From NCBI GenBank assembly GCA_020723185.1, contig DYJI01000002.1, positions 248,001 to 312,000 of the forward strand: 64,000 nt of DNA. The letters are read 5' to 3'. The DNA comes from Sideroxydans lithotrophicus. Lineage in GTDB: Bacteria > Pseudomonadota > Gammaproteobacteria > Burkholderiales > Gallionellaceae. This document shows positions 17,852 through 53,684 of this stretch, in pieces (position 1 is the first letter of the stretch; every line of letters starts with the position of its first letter). A program made the position numbers and the translations under genes. The notes beneath the pieces are model-generated. The model saw only the letters and a list, made by a program, of their open reading frames with translations, searched no databases and was not told where the DNA came from.

Positions 17852-18577
17852 ATGTCAAAGAAAGTCAGCATGGACTCTGCAGCAAATCGTGGTCAGTCTT
17901 CTGATGCGCCACGCATCGATCAGGACAACCACTTGTGGCTGCAATTCTGGCGCGATCAGCGTACGGATTTCCACCAGTCGGTCGTCAATCCCTTGCTGAG
18001 CAAGTTCTGGCCCGAGCTCCGTCTGGCGCAGGGCAGTCGCGTGTTCGTGCCCCTGTGCGGCAAGAGTCTGGACATGCTGTGGCTGGCGCAGCAGGGACAC
18101 GAGGTGATCGGTATCGAACTGAGTCCGGTGGCGGTGGAAGCGTTCTTCAGCGAGAACGGTTTGCAGCCGACGCAACAACAGGTCGACGCATTCACCTTAT
18201 GGCGCGACGGCCCCATCAGCATCCTGTGCGGCGATTACTTCGCCCTGACAACGAACGAGCTGGGCATGATCGATACGGTCTATGACCGTTCCGCGCTCAC
18301 CGCTTTGCCGGAAGAGATCCGCGGACTGTATGTCGCGCAGTTGAGCCGTCTGGTCTCGGACACTGCTGTGGTGTTCCTGCTCACGGCCGAGGATGCCGCC
18401 GAGGATGCGACGATGCAGCAGGCGACCGGCGTGGATGAGGAGATCGCGCGTTTGTACACGGGCGATTTCGATATCGCGCTGACCTATGTCGAGAGCGTGT
18501 TCGAGGCCGACCCGGTATCGGCAGCGCTGCCCTGCATACGCGCCGAATACAAGGTGTACCGGCTCACTGCACGCTAG
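17852..18577 (+). CDS. tpm: Thiopurine S-methyltransferase family protein
   Basis: A 241-aa SAM-dependent methyltransferase. The N-terminal block LWLQFWRDQRTDFHQSVVNPLLSKFWPEL and VFVPLCGKSLDMLWLAQQGHEVIGIELS are diagnostic for the TPMT family, which in bacteria methylates selenium/tellurium or thiol compounds. A second ATG at 17870 gives a protein six residues shorter and is equally plausible. It converges with the four-gene minus-strand operon ending at 18596. Confidence 0.9.
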   Translation: MSKKVSMDSAANRGQSSDAPRIDQDNHLWLQFWRDQRTDFHQSVVNPLLSKFWPELRLAQGSRVFVPLCGKSLDMLWLAQQGHEVIGIELSPVAVEAFFSENGLQPTQQQVDAFTLWRDGPISILCGDYFALTTNELGMIDTVYDRSALTALPEEIRGLYVAQLSRLVSDTAVVFLLTAEDAAEDATMQQATGVDEEIARLYTGDFDIALTYVESVFEADPVSAALPCIRAEYKVYRLTAR

Positions 18578-18595: not shown

Positions 18596-18778
18596 TCAGA
18601 AGAACGAGATCAGCGCCGCATGGCTGGTGAAAGTCACGAAGAAACCCGAACCCCAGCTCACGGCTTCGGTCGTGGTGCCATCCAGACTGCGCGCCTCGTT
18701 GTGGTTGAGGCGGATACCGACCATCAGGATCACCGTTCCCGCCACCACCATCGCCATCATCATCAGAAATTCGTTCAT
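18596..18778 (-). CDS. Small membrane protein A (paralogue of 18827-19009)
   Basis: A 60-aa protein with one clear helix (MAMVVAGTVILMVGIRL) and a second hydrophobic C-terminus (FFVTFTSHAALISFF). It shares the pattern M-x-EF-x-LMA-x-AG-x-ILMVGI ... WG-x2-F-x3-F-x-S-x-A-x-IS with the gene directly upstream, so the pair arose by tandem duplication. The chosen ATG is the second of two adjacent ATGs, 7 nt after GGGGA. It is the last gene of the 20767-18596 operon. No known family recognised. Confidence 0.65.
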   Translation of the reverse strand: MNEFLMMMAMVVAGTVILMVGIRLNHNEARSLDGTTTEAVSWGSGFFVTFTSHAALISFF

Positions 18779-18826
18779 CATGTATTCCCCTGCGTTTGAA
18801 TGTGGAACTGCGTCAGTCCTGTTCTT

Positions 18827-19009
18827 TCACAGACTGCTGATCACCAGCGCCTGACTGCCGAACACCGTCATGAACCATGCGCCCCAGCGCGTGCCCTCAA
18901 GCAGGGCATCGCCCATGCTTTGATCGGGGTCGCGATCGATGATGATGCCGACCATCAATATCGCTATGCCTGCCGCGATGCCTGCCATCAGTGTCCAGAA
19001 TTCAGTCAT
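18827..19009 (-). CDS. Small membrane protein B (paralogue of 18596-18778)
   Basis: A 60-aa protein with an N-terminal helix (MAGIAAGIAILMVGIII), an acidic linker (DRDPDQSMGDALLEG) and a second hydrophobic stretch (WFMTVFGSQALVISSL). A strong GGAG site precedes the ATG. Roughly 20-25 of 60 positions match its downstream neighbour. It lies between that paralogue and the HepT-like gene in a putative nif-regulated operon. Function unknown. Confidence 0.68.
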   Translation of the reverse strand: MTEFWTLMAGIAAGIAILMVGIIIDRDPDQSMGDALLEGTRWGAWFMTVFGSQALVISSL

Positions 19010-19067
19010 GTCCGTCTCCTTTCGTCTACCGCCACTCGGCGGTCTTGCTGCAAAGTCGTCGCATCGC

Positions 19068-19418
19068 TTACATCACCATCGAGAACAATTGCGGCTGCGT
19101 GCGCTTGTAGTCGTACAGGTGCTGCAACGTCATCGGTGTCAATTCCTTGATCGCCACCCATATCTTCAGGGGATGATCGTCGGGCTTGGCCAATGCGATG
19201 CACAATCCATGCCAAGCATCCCAGTCGATCTGGTGCAACTTCGCGCGCGCATCGGGCGGCAGGTTGTTCGCGGCCTTCGCCAGGTTGCCCAGCATCATCA
19301 ATGTCTGCGCGCGCGTGATGCGGCTGTCGAAGAATTCGCGCTCCCCGCTCTCCTCGGTAAGAGTGATGATGTTCAGGGCGAGCTGTTCCATGAGCCCGAG
19401 TAGTGCGCCAGTCAGCAT
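19068..19418 (-). CDS. HepT/DUF86-like helical protein
   Basis: A 116-aa all-helical protein. The layout EFFDSRITRAQTLMMLGNLAKAANNLPPDA...IDWDAWHGL resembles HepT/DUF86 (EFxxDxxxxxAxxxxLxxIGEAaxxLpxexR...IPWxxixGMRN), followed by IWVAIKELTPMTLQHL matching the C-terminal helix. The catalytic RX4-6H motif of HepT ribonucleases is not kept (GLCIALAKPDDH, no Arg), so an RNase activity is doubtful. A GGAG site precedes the ATG at 19418, which overlaps the upstream stop by 7 nt. The family assignment is an inference from pattern. Confidence 0.6.
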   Translation of the reverse strand: MLTGALLGLMEQLALNIITLTEESGEREFFDSRITRAQTLMMLGNLAKAANNLPPDARAKLHQIDWDAWHGLCIALAKPDDHPLKIWVAIKELTPMTLQHLYDYKRTQPQLFSMVM

Positions 19419-20767
19419 GTTGTGCTCTCCTTTAGTGCGTCGCGCAGCAGCAGTGCGACGTGTTTGGCCTTGCGTTGTGTACCTTCGTGTATCTGGTGTC
19501 TGCATGAGAATCCGTTGGCGAGGATGGCGGCGTCGGGTGCGGCGCGCAGTGCGGGCAGCAGGTCGAGCTCGGCCATCTGCATGGAGATATCGGCGTGCTC
19601 TGCCTCCAGCCCGAAACTGCCCGCCATGCCGCAGCAGCTGGCTTCGATGAATTCGAAATCGAATTCGGGGATCATGCGCAACACCTTGCGCAGCGACTTC
19701 ATCGCACCGACGGCTTTCTGGTGGCAGTGGCCGTGCACCAGCGTCTTGCCCGGCAACGGTTTGAATTCGAGTGTGAAGCGCTTGCGGTCGTGTTCGCGCG
19801 CGATGAATTCCTCGAACAGATAGACCTGTTTCGACAGTGCGACCGCCGCATCACCCAGACCGAGTTTCAGATGGTCGTCGCGCAAAGATAGGATGCATGA
19901 AGGTTCGAGGCCGACGATGGGCGTGCCCGCCGCCAGCGCGGGACGCAGCGCGAGTTGCATGCGGCGCGCTTCGTACCGGGCTTGTTCGACTTGCCCCAAC
20001 GAAAGATAAGTGCGGCCGCAACACAGCGCGCGTTCCGGTTCTTCATCGAACAGATCGGCCTGCAGCGTGGTGACGCGGTATCCGGCAGCACTCAACACCT
20101 GATGCGCGGCCTGCGCGATCTCGGGATCGAAGTGGTGGGCGAAGGTATCGACGAACAGGATGACGGCACGATCATCTTTGATCTTCGTTGTGCAGAACGC
20201 AGGGGCTACATAGGGTGCGGCGGAAGGCTCTGGCAGTTTGCGTTTGGCCGAGATGCCGAACAGCCGCTCGCCCAGCTTCGCCAGCCACGGTGCGCGATTG
20301 CGCCAGCGAATGATGCGCCGCAACACGGGATAGCGATGCAGTTGCTGCGGCAGACCGGCGATCAATCGTTCGCGTCGCGACACGCCCAACTGCGCATTGC
20401 GCTGCGCCTGATATTCGATCTTGATGGCGGCCATGTCGACCTGGTTGGCGCATTCGCGTTTGCAACCTTTGCAGCCGACACACAGTTCCAACGCCTCCGC
20501 GAGTTCCTTGCCCGCGAAAGCATCTTCACCCAGTTCACCGTTCAGAGCCGCCTTGAGCACCTGCACCCGACCGCCCGGTGAATGCGCAACATCGTCCGTT
20601 GCGCGGAAGCTGGGACACATCACGCCCTTGGGTTTGCGCTGGCATTGTTTGTCGCTGATGCACACCGCGACCGCCTTGGCGAAGTCGCCGCCGCGCGCGG
20701 GGATGCCCGCATAGGCATCGCCCTGTCCGGCGGTTTCATAAGCTGACCAGTCGAGGTGGAGTTTCAT
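19412..20767 (-). CDS. Fe-S oxidoreductase with CCG domains (YdiJ/GlcF-type Fe-S half)
   Basis: A 451-aa protein equivalent to the C-terminal half of YdiJ-type FAD/Fe-S oxidoreductases. It has CISDKQC...GVMCPSFRAT (about 36-56), a ferredoxin motif CVGCKGCKRECA, and two C-terminal cysteine-rich segments (CCGRTYLSLG with EPSC; HGHCHQK with EASCCGMAGSFG). The FAD domain usually fused upstream is absent here, so a separate partner is expected. The start ATG at 20767 (MKLHLDWSAYET) has no ribosome site, and the sigma-54 candidate at 20779 would start transcription almost at this codon. It is divergent from nifB and first in an unusual four-gene operon. Confidence 0.82.
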   Translation of the reverse strand: MKLHLDWSAYETAGQGDAYAGIPARGGDFAKAVAVCISDKQCQRKPKGVMCPSFRATDDVAHSPGGRVQVLKAALNGELGEDAFAGKELAEALELCVGCKGCKRECANQVDMAAIKIEYQAQRNAQLGVSRRERLIAGLPQQLHRYPVLRRIIRWRNRAPWLAKLGERLFGISAKRKLPEPSAAPYVAPAFCTTKIKDDRAVILFVDTFAHHFDPEIAQAAHQVLSAAGYRVTTLQADLFDEEPERALCCGRTYLSLGQVEQARYEARRMQLALRPALAAGTPIVGLEPSCILSLRDDHLKLGLGDAAVALSKQVYLFEEFIAREHDRKRFTLEFKPLPGKTLVHGHCHQKAVGAMKSLRKVLRMIPEFDFEFIEASCCGMAGSFGLEAEHADISMQMAELDLLPALRAAPDAAILANGFSCRHQIHEGTQRKAKHVALLLRDALKESTTC

Positions 20768-20778
20768 GCCTATATACA

Positions 20779-20794
20779 GGCAAGTTGGATGCCA
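20779..20794 (-). promoter_or_regulatory. Sigma-54 promoter candidate for the Fe-S/HepT-like operon
   Basis: On the minus strand this reads TGGCAT-CCAAC-TTGCC, keeping the GG/GC core at correct spacing. The predicted transcription start (about 20768) coincides with the annotated ATG, implying a leaderless message, a downstream start codon, or a false site. Two NifA sites lie 110-180 bp upstream. Confidence 0.5.
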
Positions 20795-20901: not shown

Positions 20902-20917
20902 TGTCGCCTTCGCCACA
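20902..20917. promoter_or_regulatory. NifA upstream activator sequence 1 (nifB)
   Basis: TGT-CGCCTTCGCC-ACA, an exact TGT-N10-ACA match centred about 130 bp upstream of the predicted nifB start of transcription and about 140 bp from the divergent promoter. Confidence 0.75.
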
Positions 20918-20934: not shown

Positions 20935-20950
20935 TGTGCAATTTGCAACA
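20935..20950. promoter_or_regulatory. NifA upstream activator sequence 2 (nifB)
   Basis: TGT-GCAATTTGCA-ACA, an exact match with further dyad symmetry in the spacer (GCAA/TTGC). It is spaced 33 bp, about three helical turns, from the site at 20902. Confidence 0.78.
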
Positions 20951-21013: not shown

Positions 21014-21029
21014 AGGCACGCGGCTTGCT
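21014..21029 (+). promoter_or_regulatory. Sigma-54 promoter of nifB
   Basis: AGGCAC-GCGGC-TTGCT matches the -24/-12 consensus apart from the first base. The leader would be about 23 nt with a GGAGG ribosome site before the GTG of nifB. Confidence 0.85.
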
Positions 21030-21062: not shown

Positions 21063-22559
21063 GTGGAACTGCCCGTACTGAACAACACAGCAAGCGAAGC
21101 CCCAAAAGGCGGATGTTCCGCCGGATCGTGCGGCTCGACCGACGACCAGATGAGCCACCTGCCGGACAGCATCCGCGACAAGGTGAAGAACCATCCCTGC
21201 TATTCCGAAGAAGCACACCATTATTTCGCGCGCATGCACGTCGCCGTCGCACCGGCGTGCAACATCCAGTGCCACTACTGCAACCGCAAGTACGATTGCT
21301 CCAACGAGTCGCGCCCCGGCGTGGTCTCCGAGGTGCTCAATCCGGTACAGGCGGTGAAGAAGGTGATGGCCGTCGCCGCCACCATCCCGCAGATGACGGT
21401 GCTGGGCATCGCCGGCCCCGGCGACGCGCTGGCCAATCCGCAGCGCACCTTCGACACCTTCCGCATGCTGAACGAGCAGGCACCCGACATCAAACTGTGC
21501 GTCTCCACCAACGGCCTGGCCTTGCCGGAGAACGTCGAAGAGATGTGCAAGTACAACATCGACCACGTCACCATCACCATCAACTGCGTGGACCCGGACG
21601 TGGGCGCGAAGATCTATCCGTGGATCTTCTGGAACAACAAGCGCATCAAGGGCCGCGAGGCCGCAGCCATCCTCATCGAGCAGCAACAGAAGGGGCTGGA
21701 GATGCTGGTCGCCAAGGGCGTGCTGGTGAAAGTGAACTCGGTGATGATCCCCGGCGTGAACGACAAGCATCTGGAAGAAGTCTCGAAGATCGTGAAGGCC
21801 AAGGGTGCGTTCCTGCACAACGTGATGCCGCTGATCTCTGAGGAGGAACACGGCACCTACTACGGTCTCACCGGCCAGCGCGGCCCGACCAACGAGGAAT
21901 TGCAGGCCTTGCAGGACGCCTGCGCGGGCGACATGAACATGATGCGTCACTGCCGCCAGTGCCGCGCCGACGCGGTTGGCCTGCTGGGCGAGGACAGGGG
22001 TGCCGAGTTCACGCTGGACAAGATCGAGGCGATGGACATCGACTACGAAGCCGCGATGAAGATGCGCGCCGAGGTGCACGCGGCCATCAACGAGGAACTG
22101 GAAAGTAAACACAAGGCCAAGGAAACCAAGCTGGTCAGCATCGAAGGCCTGAAGAAGGAAGCGACCCGCCCGGTATTGATGGCGGTCGCCACCAAAGGCG
22201 GCGGCGTCATCAACGAACACTTCGGCCATGCCAGCGAGTTCCTGATCTACGAAGCATCGGGCAACGGCGTGCGCTTCATCGGCCACCGCAAGACCATCCC
22301 CTACTGCGAAGGCGGCGACACCTGTGGCGACGGCGAGAGCGCGCTGGACGTGACCATCCGCGAACTCTCCGGTTGCGAAGTGGTGCTGTGCAGCAAGGTC
22401 GGCTACGAGCCATGGGGCCCGCTGGAAGCCGCAGGCATCCAGCCCAACGGCGAGCATGCGATGGAAGCCATCGAGGATGCGGTGCTGGCGGTATATGAAG
22501 AGATGCGTGTCGCGGGCAAGCTGGCAGCGGAACCCGACGCTGCGCAGAAAGCGGCTTGA
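21063..22559 (+). CDS. nifB: NifB, FeMo-cofactor core (NifB-co) synthase
   Basis: A 498-aa radical-SAM enzyme that fuses two [4Fe-4S] clusters and inserts carbide to make NifB-co. The radical-SAM cysteines are C66, C70 and C73 in CNIQCHYC. The C-terminal domain from about residue 375 (PVLMAVATKGGGVINEHFGHA) is the NifX-like carrier domain. I chose the GTG at 21063 because GGAGG lies 7 nt upstream and the sigma-54 promoter at 21014 would exclude the longer ORF. Two NifA sites precede it. Confidence 0.96.
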   Translation: MELPVLNNTASEAPKGGCSAGSCGSTDDQMSHLPDSIRDKVKNHPCYSEEAHHYFARMHVAVAPACNIQCHYCNRKYDCSNESRPGVVSEVLNPVQAVKKVMAVAATIPQMTVLGIAGPGDALANPQRTFDTFRMLNEQAPDIKLCVSTNGLALPENVEEMCKYNIDHVTITINCVDPDVGAKIYPWIFWNNKRIKGREAAAILIEQQQKGLEMLVAKGVLVKVNSVMIPGVNDKHLEEVSKIVKAKGAFLHNVMPLISEEEHGTYYGLTGQRGPTNEELQALQDACAGDMNMMRHCRQCRADAVGLLGEDRGAEFTLDKIEAMDIDYEAAMKMRAEVHAAINEELESKHKAKETKLVSIEGLKKEATRPVLMAVATKGGGVINEHFGHASEFLIYEASGNGVRFIGHRKTIPYCEGGDTCGDGESALDVTIRELSGCEVVLCSKVGYEPWGPLEAAGIQPNGEHAMEAIEDAVLAVYEEMRVAGKLAAEPDAAQKAA

Positions 22560-53210: not shown

Positions 53211-53684
53211 TTAAGCCGTGACCTTCGCCAATGCGGCGCGGTACTGGTTGGCGTGACGTTCTTCCACCCTGGCCAGAGCGGCGAAGCGCTTGGCCGCCTT
53301 TTCCAGCGTGGCCTTGAACATCTCGGCGTGCTCCTTCGATTCAGCGATCTGTTCCTTGATCTCGCTCGCGGCCGCATCGTGTCCTTCCTGCTGCGCGGTC
53401 TTGAGGAAGCCCGGATACATCTCGGTGTATTCGTAGGTCTCGCCTTCGATAGCCATCTGCAGGCACTTTTCCGTAGTCATCGTCGACTTCGGGTACAGCA
53501 GGTCGAGGTGCCCCAGTGCATGCTGCACCTCCTGGGCGGCGGTCTCTTCGAACACGCGCGCCACTTCCTCGTTGCCTTCGGCGCGCGCGATGGCGGCGAA
53601 GTAGCGGTACTTGGTGTGCGCCATCGATTCGCCCGCCAGTGCGGCTTCCAGGTTGGCATGGGTCTTGATATCGGGTCGTTGCAT
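53211..53684 (-). CDS. Rubrerythrin-type diiron peroxidase
   Basis: A 157-aa ferritin-like protein with diiron ligands in [41 protein letters not shown] and SKEHAEMF. It lacks the C-terminal rubredoxin domain of classical rubrerythrin, and a separate rubredoxin gene follows 26 nt downstream. It reduces hydrogen peroxide. It is divergent from oxyR. Confidence 0.93.

Follow-up and report, generated by a model that had tools for sequence, protein, structure and literature searches.

A stand-alone Fe-S oxidoreductase and a HepT relative without the toxin motif, paired beside nifB in Gallionellaceae

The stretch of DNA considered here, called the window in what follows, consists of 64,000 nucleotides (nt) of contig DYJI01000002.1 of Sideroxydans lithotrophicus (family Gallionellaceae; assembly GCA_020723185.1, positions 248,001 to 312,000). 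Divergent from nifB, it carries genes for a 451-amino-acid (aa) Fe-S oxidoreductase, named FeS below, and for a 116-aa protein that we call Hlk and which, by profile comparison and structure prediction, is a relative of HepT. The original prediction, drawn from the window alone, had seen there an operon of four genes; its conserved core is FeS and Hlk. The two are paired as a feature of Gallionellaceae; singly, each is linked to nif in a wider range of genomes. The reading that we favour, tentatively and at somewhat less than an even chance, is that FeS-Hlk forms a two-gene nif accessory module under NifA/sigma-54 control, where FeS would carry electrons and Hlk would act as an adaptor, serving cofactor synthesis or handling. 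As the prediction had it, the set seems to be without prior description: none came up in searches of the open-licence literature, and the passages available from papers on Azoarcus BH72, Pseudomonas stutzeri A1501, Sideroxydans ES-1, RFO and HepT/MntA do not describe Hlk. The genome paper of Sideroxydans ES-1 covers the nifB-nifQ cluster, and its available passages make no mention of FeS or Hlk (PMC3770913).

The gene pair beside nifB

The four predicted open reading frames (ORFs) are all present on the minus strand (Table 1), and their junctions are as short as had been claimed: FeS and Hlk overlap by 7 nt, the FeS stop falling within the first Hlk codons (ATGCTGA), while 58 nt separate Hlk from the small membrane-protein gene TM1 and 45 nt separate the latter from TM2. 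Between FeS and nifB the gap is 295 nt. In the 150 Gallionellaceae genomes surveyed, nifB was used as a proxy for diazotrophy. It was found in 65 genomes at E <= 0.001, of which 49 were counted as being over the cut-off, and two contig-end fragments (G024, G101) were added; that of G101 is ambiguous (profile positions 360-439, 65.6 bits, in a genome 69% complete) and could be a NifX-like domain. Hlk is present in 27 genomes, each with a nifB sequence (25 over the cut-off, and the two fragments), and a further 24 nifB-bearing genomes are without it. Wherever both genes lie on one contig (25 of 25 genomes), Hlk is divergent from nifB at a distance of at most 3.5 kb, so that the announced link to nif is borne out. 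Fisher tests of the co-occurrence of Hlk and nifB, made on conservative counts that leave out G024 and G101 and uncorrected for kinship among genomes, gave 8e-13 in the family and 6e-10 in the order.

The two genes are also tied to each other. The 7-nt overlap recurs in 24 of the 27 Hlk-bearing genomes, under four genus labels; the exceptions are G075, with a gap of 2 nt, and G001 and G072, where the FeS frame ends 116 and 176 nt earlier, respectively. The togetherness of FeS and Hlk across Gallionellaceae is more than chance, and the conserved overlap suggests that the two proteins are, within this family, produced together and bind each other. One genome of the family, G131, lacks Hlk and carries FeS next to nifB.

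The membrane part of the predicted unit fared otherwise. TM1 and TM2 are indeed paralogues (approximately 40% identity over 58 aa), and TM1 has no family match above cut-off in Pfam or NCBIfam. Among the 27 Hlk-bearing genomes, TM2 adjoins Hlk in only 6 and TM1 in 2, as seen with tblastn, which a distant TM gene could escape, and with the sequence of G089 and G072 ending just past Hlk; G024 (L003), a near relative, has neither. Genes of this type were met only within the near group, where further copies lie elsewhere in the genome, and a weak match (34%) was seen near Hlk on the opposite strand in L017. A third TM1/TM2 paralogue stands away from the FeS-Hlk operon at L002:12021-12200 and L007:14729-14908. 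TM1 and TM2 are lineage-specific and not conserved with FeS-Hlk; a conserved four-gene membrane module is thus not what relatives display. Of the original interpretation, the kinship with HepT, the loss of the flavin adenine dinucleotide (FAD) half of FeS, the missing MntA and the nif-type sites stand, and the membrane part does not. In the same way, the expectation that relatives would keep the four genes together holds for FeS-Hlk and fails for TM1 and TM2, and FeS occurs without Hlk both in G131 and in G623, outside the family.

Other partners vary as well. Of the 25 genomes where the contig includes nifB, 5 have the order NafY-type gene, 87-aa ORF, FeS, Hlk (G046, G066, G042, G135 and G053; loci L112:9134-11825, in G046, and L113, L114, L116 and L117). 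The three copies of the NafY-type gene that were scanned have both DIMCO_N and Nitro_FeMo-Co domains, and a perfect sigma-54-type site precedes the gene in all five operons. In G003, nifB and FeS are separated by an AAA_14/DUF4143 ATPase gene (L115:4709-6172).

Control regions

That the operon shares a NifA/sigma-54 region with nifB was part of the prediction, and the sites are found in the window (Table 1), in its near relatives and in a recount over the 27 genomes. Loci L002-L007 share the FeS-nifB control sites, with a shift of one base on the FeS side in L006 and a 943-nt insert between the genes in L005; in these loci and in the window the -24/-12 site stands at -27 or -28 before FeS. With up to one mismatch to TGGCAC-N5-TTGC allowed, a sigma-54-type site was found no more than 150 nt from the operon's leading gene in 25 of the 27 Gallionellaceae genomes (G023 and G115 being without), and TGT-N10-ACA lies within 300 nt of that gene in all 27. 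Of the 22 genomes where FeS comes first, 20 have the site 27-32 nt ahead of the ATG; in the window it ends 11 nt before the ATG. With such spacing transcription would begin at the start codon or close beside it, and the FeS mRNA may have no leader or hardly any. Judged by its sites, a -24/-12 element together with TGT-N10-ACA, the FeS-Hlk operon would belong to the NifA/sigma-54 regulon.

Similar sites are met far from the family. The distant FeS genes of L048, L099, L102 and L103 are likewise preceded by sigma-54/NifA-type sites. Among 18 Hlk loci outside Gallionellaceae, some of them from the same genome, a perfect site at -51 to -63 and TGT-N10-ACA upstream of it are present in four, two more have one or two mismatches with the upstream site, and two have at most two mismatches and no upstream site. 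In random 200-nt stretches a perfect sigma-54 site occurs in 0.24% and a site with up to two mismatches in 6.8%, which for four perfect sites in 18 gives P of approximately 1e-7. In five of the remaining loci (L067-L071) a same-strand gene lies directly upstream of Hlk. One nifB-bearing genome, G572, has four genes of the Hlk family (L074, L075, L076 and L077); of these, L074 alone combines a sigma-54-type site (2 mismatches) with a NifA-type site upstream.

Table 1. Features of the FeS-Hlk locus and its borders, in window positions
Feature	Position	Strand	Remarks
FeS	19412..20767, stop included	-	451 aa; stand-alone Fe-S oxidoreductase
Hlk	19068..19418	-	116 aa; HepT-fold protein (predicted) without RX4HXY
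TM1	18827..19009	-	60 aa; small membrane protein; perhaps co-transcribed in the window
TM2	18596..18781	-	61 aa; paralogue of TM1
nifB, divergent neighbour	21063..22559	+	GTG start; TIGR01290, 653.7 bits against a cut-off of 343.65
Thiopurine S-methyltransferase gene, convergent	17852..18577	+	PF05724; bounds the unit downstream
Sigma-54-type -24/-12 site TGGCATCCAACTTGCC before FeS	20779..20794	-	pattern search
NifA-type upstream site TGT-N10-ACA	20902..20917	.	between FeS and nifB
Second NifA-type site TGT-N10-ACA	20935..20950	.	33 nt from the first
Sigma-54-type -24/-12 site AGGCACGCGGCTTGCT before nifB	21014..21029	+	pattern search

FeS and Hlk compared with their relatives

FeS comes closest to YdiJ, the FAD-linked 2-hydroxyacid dehydrogenases and GlpC (COG0247, with the CCG domain); its Pfam matches are to Fer4_8, Fer4_17 and CCG. 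It departs from these proteins in staying under all NCBIfam cut-offs, in its link to nif and in having no FAD half. The YdiJ profile aligns only at positions 657-1014 of 1018 (119.7 bits, cut-off 1350), a match that begins too late to include an FAD half, just as had been predicted, and two GlpC models gave 156.4 bits (cut-off 278) and 94.9 bits (cut-off 279.9). Fourteen cysteines, seven N-terminal and seven in the CCG region, are invariant in all 20 FeS sequences chosen for comparison, and the same set is present in a fused relative, L105. A search of the PDB with the FeS profile (A2) gave no match; the structure predicted for FeS, with a predicted local distance difference test score of 38, was not used.

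In the 150 genomes the FeS profile retrieved 28 orthologues of at least 900 bits. In 18 genomes it also found another stand-alone copy, scoring 508-552 bits. The window's own genome is one of these 18, its second copy standing approximately 10 kb before the window (C2:236874-238223). One internal stop interrupts the match in 5 of the 18 second copies; the same holds for G001 and G072 in their first copy. G134, G022, G125 and G643 have long open frames, which were taken as fused and left out of the stand-alone counts.

Devoid of its own flavin half, FeS would have to take electrons from other proteins and pass them on to others. One possibility is a split dehydrogenase for 2-hydroxyacids or lactate that feeds reductant to nitrogenase, with FeS as its Fe-S subunit, the flavin subunit being encoded elsewhere and Hlk acting as an assembly chaperone. 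FeS does equal the Fe-S half of fused proteins, its plasmid-borne relatives (approximately 45% identity) include proteins annotated FAD-binding and (Fe-S)-binding, and the window's genome has FAD oxidases, one as a separate gene (C9:387816) and one inside a 1272-aa ORF near C2:15 kb. Both lie outside the nif region, however, and no FAD partner for FeS was found when one was sought in the nif region of its own genome. G046 has a glcD-like gene with an adjoining FAD-type match (glcE-like) approximately 9 kb from FeS (L132:8853-10852), but this pair, named by eye, resembles an ordinary glycolate-oxidase operon, and a glcD-like probe detected no further copy close to FeS in the loci examined, except for a fused relative. 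A split dehydrogenase is, on balance, rather improbable.

The kinship of Hlk with HepT is visible only through profiles and the predicted fold. Searches with the single sequence (Pfam, NCBIfam and PDB with phmmer) returned nothing, and the protein of the window does not match PF01934 even at E up to 10; within the family, 14 of 29 members match it at E up to 1, the best at 8e-5. Comparison of profiles places Hlk with HepT (98%), with similarity over nearly its full length, and VIA-align assigns the predicted structure of Hlk to the HepT (HEPN) fold. The claim on the fold is made because VIA-align and the profile evidence go together: Foldseek on the Hlk model found nothing at E <= 0.001, and a PDB search with profile A5 gave rows at chance level only, no HepT among them. 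The relationship to HepT/DUF86 proposed in the original prediction is in this way recovered, and so is the lack of an MntA nucleotidyltransferase, since the ORFs flanking Hlk in the window are FeS and TM1. MntA-like ORFs, recognized by eye, adjoin 10 of 12 HepT proteins, the remaining two (L059 and L061) not having been inspected.

Given this fold and this kinship, Hlk might be taken for an active HEPN ribonuclease (RNase) toxin, or for the remnant of one, in a selfish or defence element beside nifB. We rejected the HepT/MntA toxin as the leading reading because Hlk has neither RX4HXY nor an adjacent MntA. This motif, which combines the catalytic and the AMPylation function, is present in 12 of 12 HepT and in none of the 34 rows of the Hlk family. 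An RX4-6H-like string does occur elsewhere in the chain in four of the 34, that of the window not being among them, yet 29 family members gave no match in PADLOC, and NifA/sigma-54-type sites precede the operon. A toxin is therefore very improbable. NCBIfam returned for 29 members only single matches at chance level (E 0.02 or worse). Like HepT/MntA proteins (HEPN/MNT, PF01934), Hlk would keep the helical fold; unlike them, it has a C-terminal motif of its own, of the type W-LR-YR-x2-QP-x-LF, and in the surveys it is confined to genomes with nifB. It is best read as a binding scaffold. Hlk offers a plain example of the HEPN/HepT toxin fold stripped of its catalytic motif and now placed in an apparent metabolic regulon.

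The genes outside the family and their possible role

Beyond Gallionellaceae the two genes part company. In the survey of the order, from which G472, G560 and G707 were removed because their matches are true HepT and have RX4HXY, Hlk was found in 12 of 200 genomes, all among the 29 with nifB; beyond the order, G452 and G730 bear both Hlk and nifB. In the 12 Hlk-bearing genomes outside Gallionellaceae, FeS and Hlk are never adjacent, which weighs against a fixed pair: a stand-alone FeS lies on another contig in five, and in seven none is seen at E <= 1e-80. G623 has FeS one gene away from nifB and no Hlk, and the nif plasmid of Methylococcus sp. EFPC2 carries FeS (54%) and Hlk (approximately 30%) 23 kb apart; in this sole annotated record seen, Hlk is labelled hypothetical. 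The pairing thus belongs to Gallionellaceae, since elsewhere the genes were found apart, and singly near nif. Surveys of the class and phylum add little, because they hold few diazotrophs and only some first-look candidates were scored, so that an absence of Hlk there is weak. Of the 13 rows (369 genomes) in the class, only G000, the window's own genome, and G452 (L035) are Hlk, nine are genuine HepT (G472, G225, G285, G396, G426, G476, G480, G492 and G496) and two weak matches (G352, G394) fall within a short broken frame or an ORF of no relation; a second match in G452 is HepT, as is G472 in the phylum (3 of 398).

Within 12 kb of distant Hlk genes, core nif genes or companions that recur (fdxB, modE, FmdB, AAA ATPase, GST, FAH, amine oxidase) occur at 9 of 18 loci, a count that leaves out probe matches to their own source only (L074) and a lone NifA-like regulator (L081). 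An AAA ATPase of approximately 565 aa is conserved in nif islands near Hlk or FeS (L068:9705-11420, L071:6387-8087, L073:9565-11262, L109:8398-10101, L048:25958-27661). In G562 a 196-aa ORF without Pfam match at E 0.01 lies directly upstream of both copies of Hlk (L070:9752-10339). In G452 (L035 / L081) the gene order, named by eye, is hypC-hypD-Hlk-hypE-hypX, which hints at a link with hydrogenase maturation.

Two main rivals have to be weighed here. FeS and Hlk might have separate nif roles and have been brought into one operon only in Gallionellaceae, by shuffling of nif islands, without any need of contact. Besides the lack of adjacency elsewhere, each gene outside the family adjoins other nif-island genes and can have a sigma-54-type site of its own; set against this is the overlap conserved across genus labels in Gallionellaceae. 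Separate roles are doubtful to our eyes, if the least improbable of the alternatives. The other main rival, protection of nitrogenase or NifB against O2 or peroxide, owes its standing to the precedent of RFO: according to the passages available, a GlpC-like Fe-S oxidoreductase is linked there to an aerobic-type rubrerythrin and to a protein of unknown function (PMC5114695). FeS would then feed a peroxidase-like or repair partner held by Hlk. FeS-Hlk resembles RFO in joining a COG0247-type protein to a partner of unknown role; the RFO set goes with rubrerythrin, whereas FeS-Hlk goes with nifB, sometimes NafY, and its partner is a HepT relative. Microaerophily is ascribed, in the passages available, to two iron-oxidizing relatives, Sideroxydans ES-1 and Gallionella ES-2 (PMC3770913), and some distant Hlk genes have GST, glutaredoxin or amine-oxidase genes in their vicinity. 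By contrast, no rubrerythrin or peroxidase was noticed beside FeS in the ORFs viewed by eye, no profile search having been made, and the window's rubrerythrin-like ORF, also named by eye (53211-53684), is approximately 32 kb from FeS. We hold a protective role to be unlikely.

An accessory module for the cofactor, which we tentatively prefer, would work as follows. NifA and sigma-54 would switch on FeS-Hlk together with nifB. FeS, as the Fe-S/CCG half of a YdiJ-type dehydrogenase whose own flavin half has been lost, would serve as an intermediary electron carrier. Hlk has lost the RNase site and the AMPylation tyrosine; the fold that it has kept would serve as a small helical adaptor or as a partner in assembly, and in Gallionellaceae overlapping translation would keep its production in step with that of FeS. 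Cofactor synthesis or handling, by redox supply or stabilization around NifB/NafY, would be the most likely destination, because nifB is next door and a NafY-type carrier heads the operon in some relatives. FeS-Hlk may in this respect be likened to NafY/NifX, to other nif accessory proteins and to PnfA of P. stutzeri, which are found with nif; in the passages available PnfA is reported to depend on NifA and sigma-54 and to be known only from diazotrophs (PMC2820453). FeS and Hlk differ from NafY/NifX and PnfA in being different proteins. A bolder proposal, and an improbable one, makes Hlk a new class of nif protein, a disarmed toxin fold used as a client-binding adaptor that would couple a dedicated Fe-S electron carrier to NifB or to a NafY-type carrier while the cofactor is being assembled; the Hlk gene between hypD and hypE in G452 hints that this adaptor may also act in the assembly of other metal cofactors.

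Assembly of the FeMo-cofactor is still incompletely mapped, and the transfer of nif into crops requires a complete list of accessory parts. As a recurrent family preceded by NifA/sigma-54-type sites and unrecognized by NCBIfam, Hlk is a candidate for such a part.

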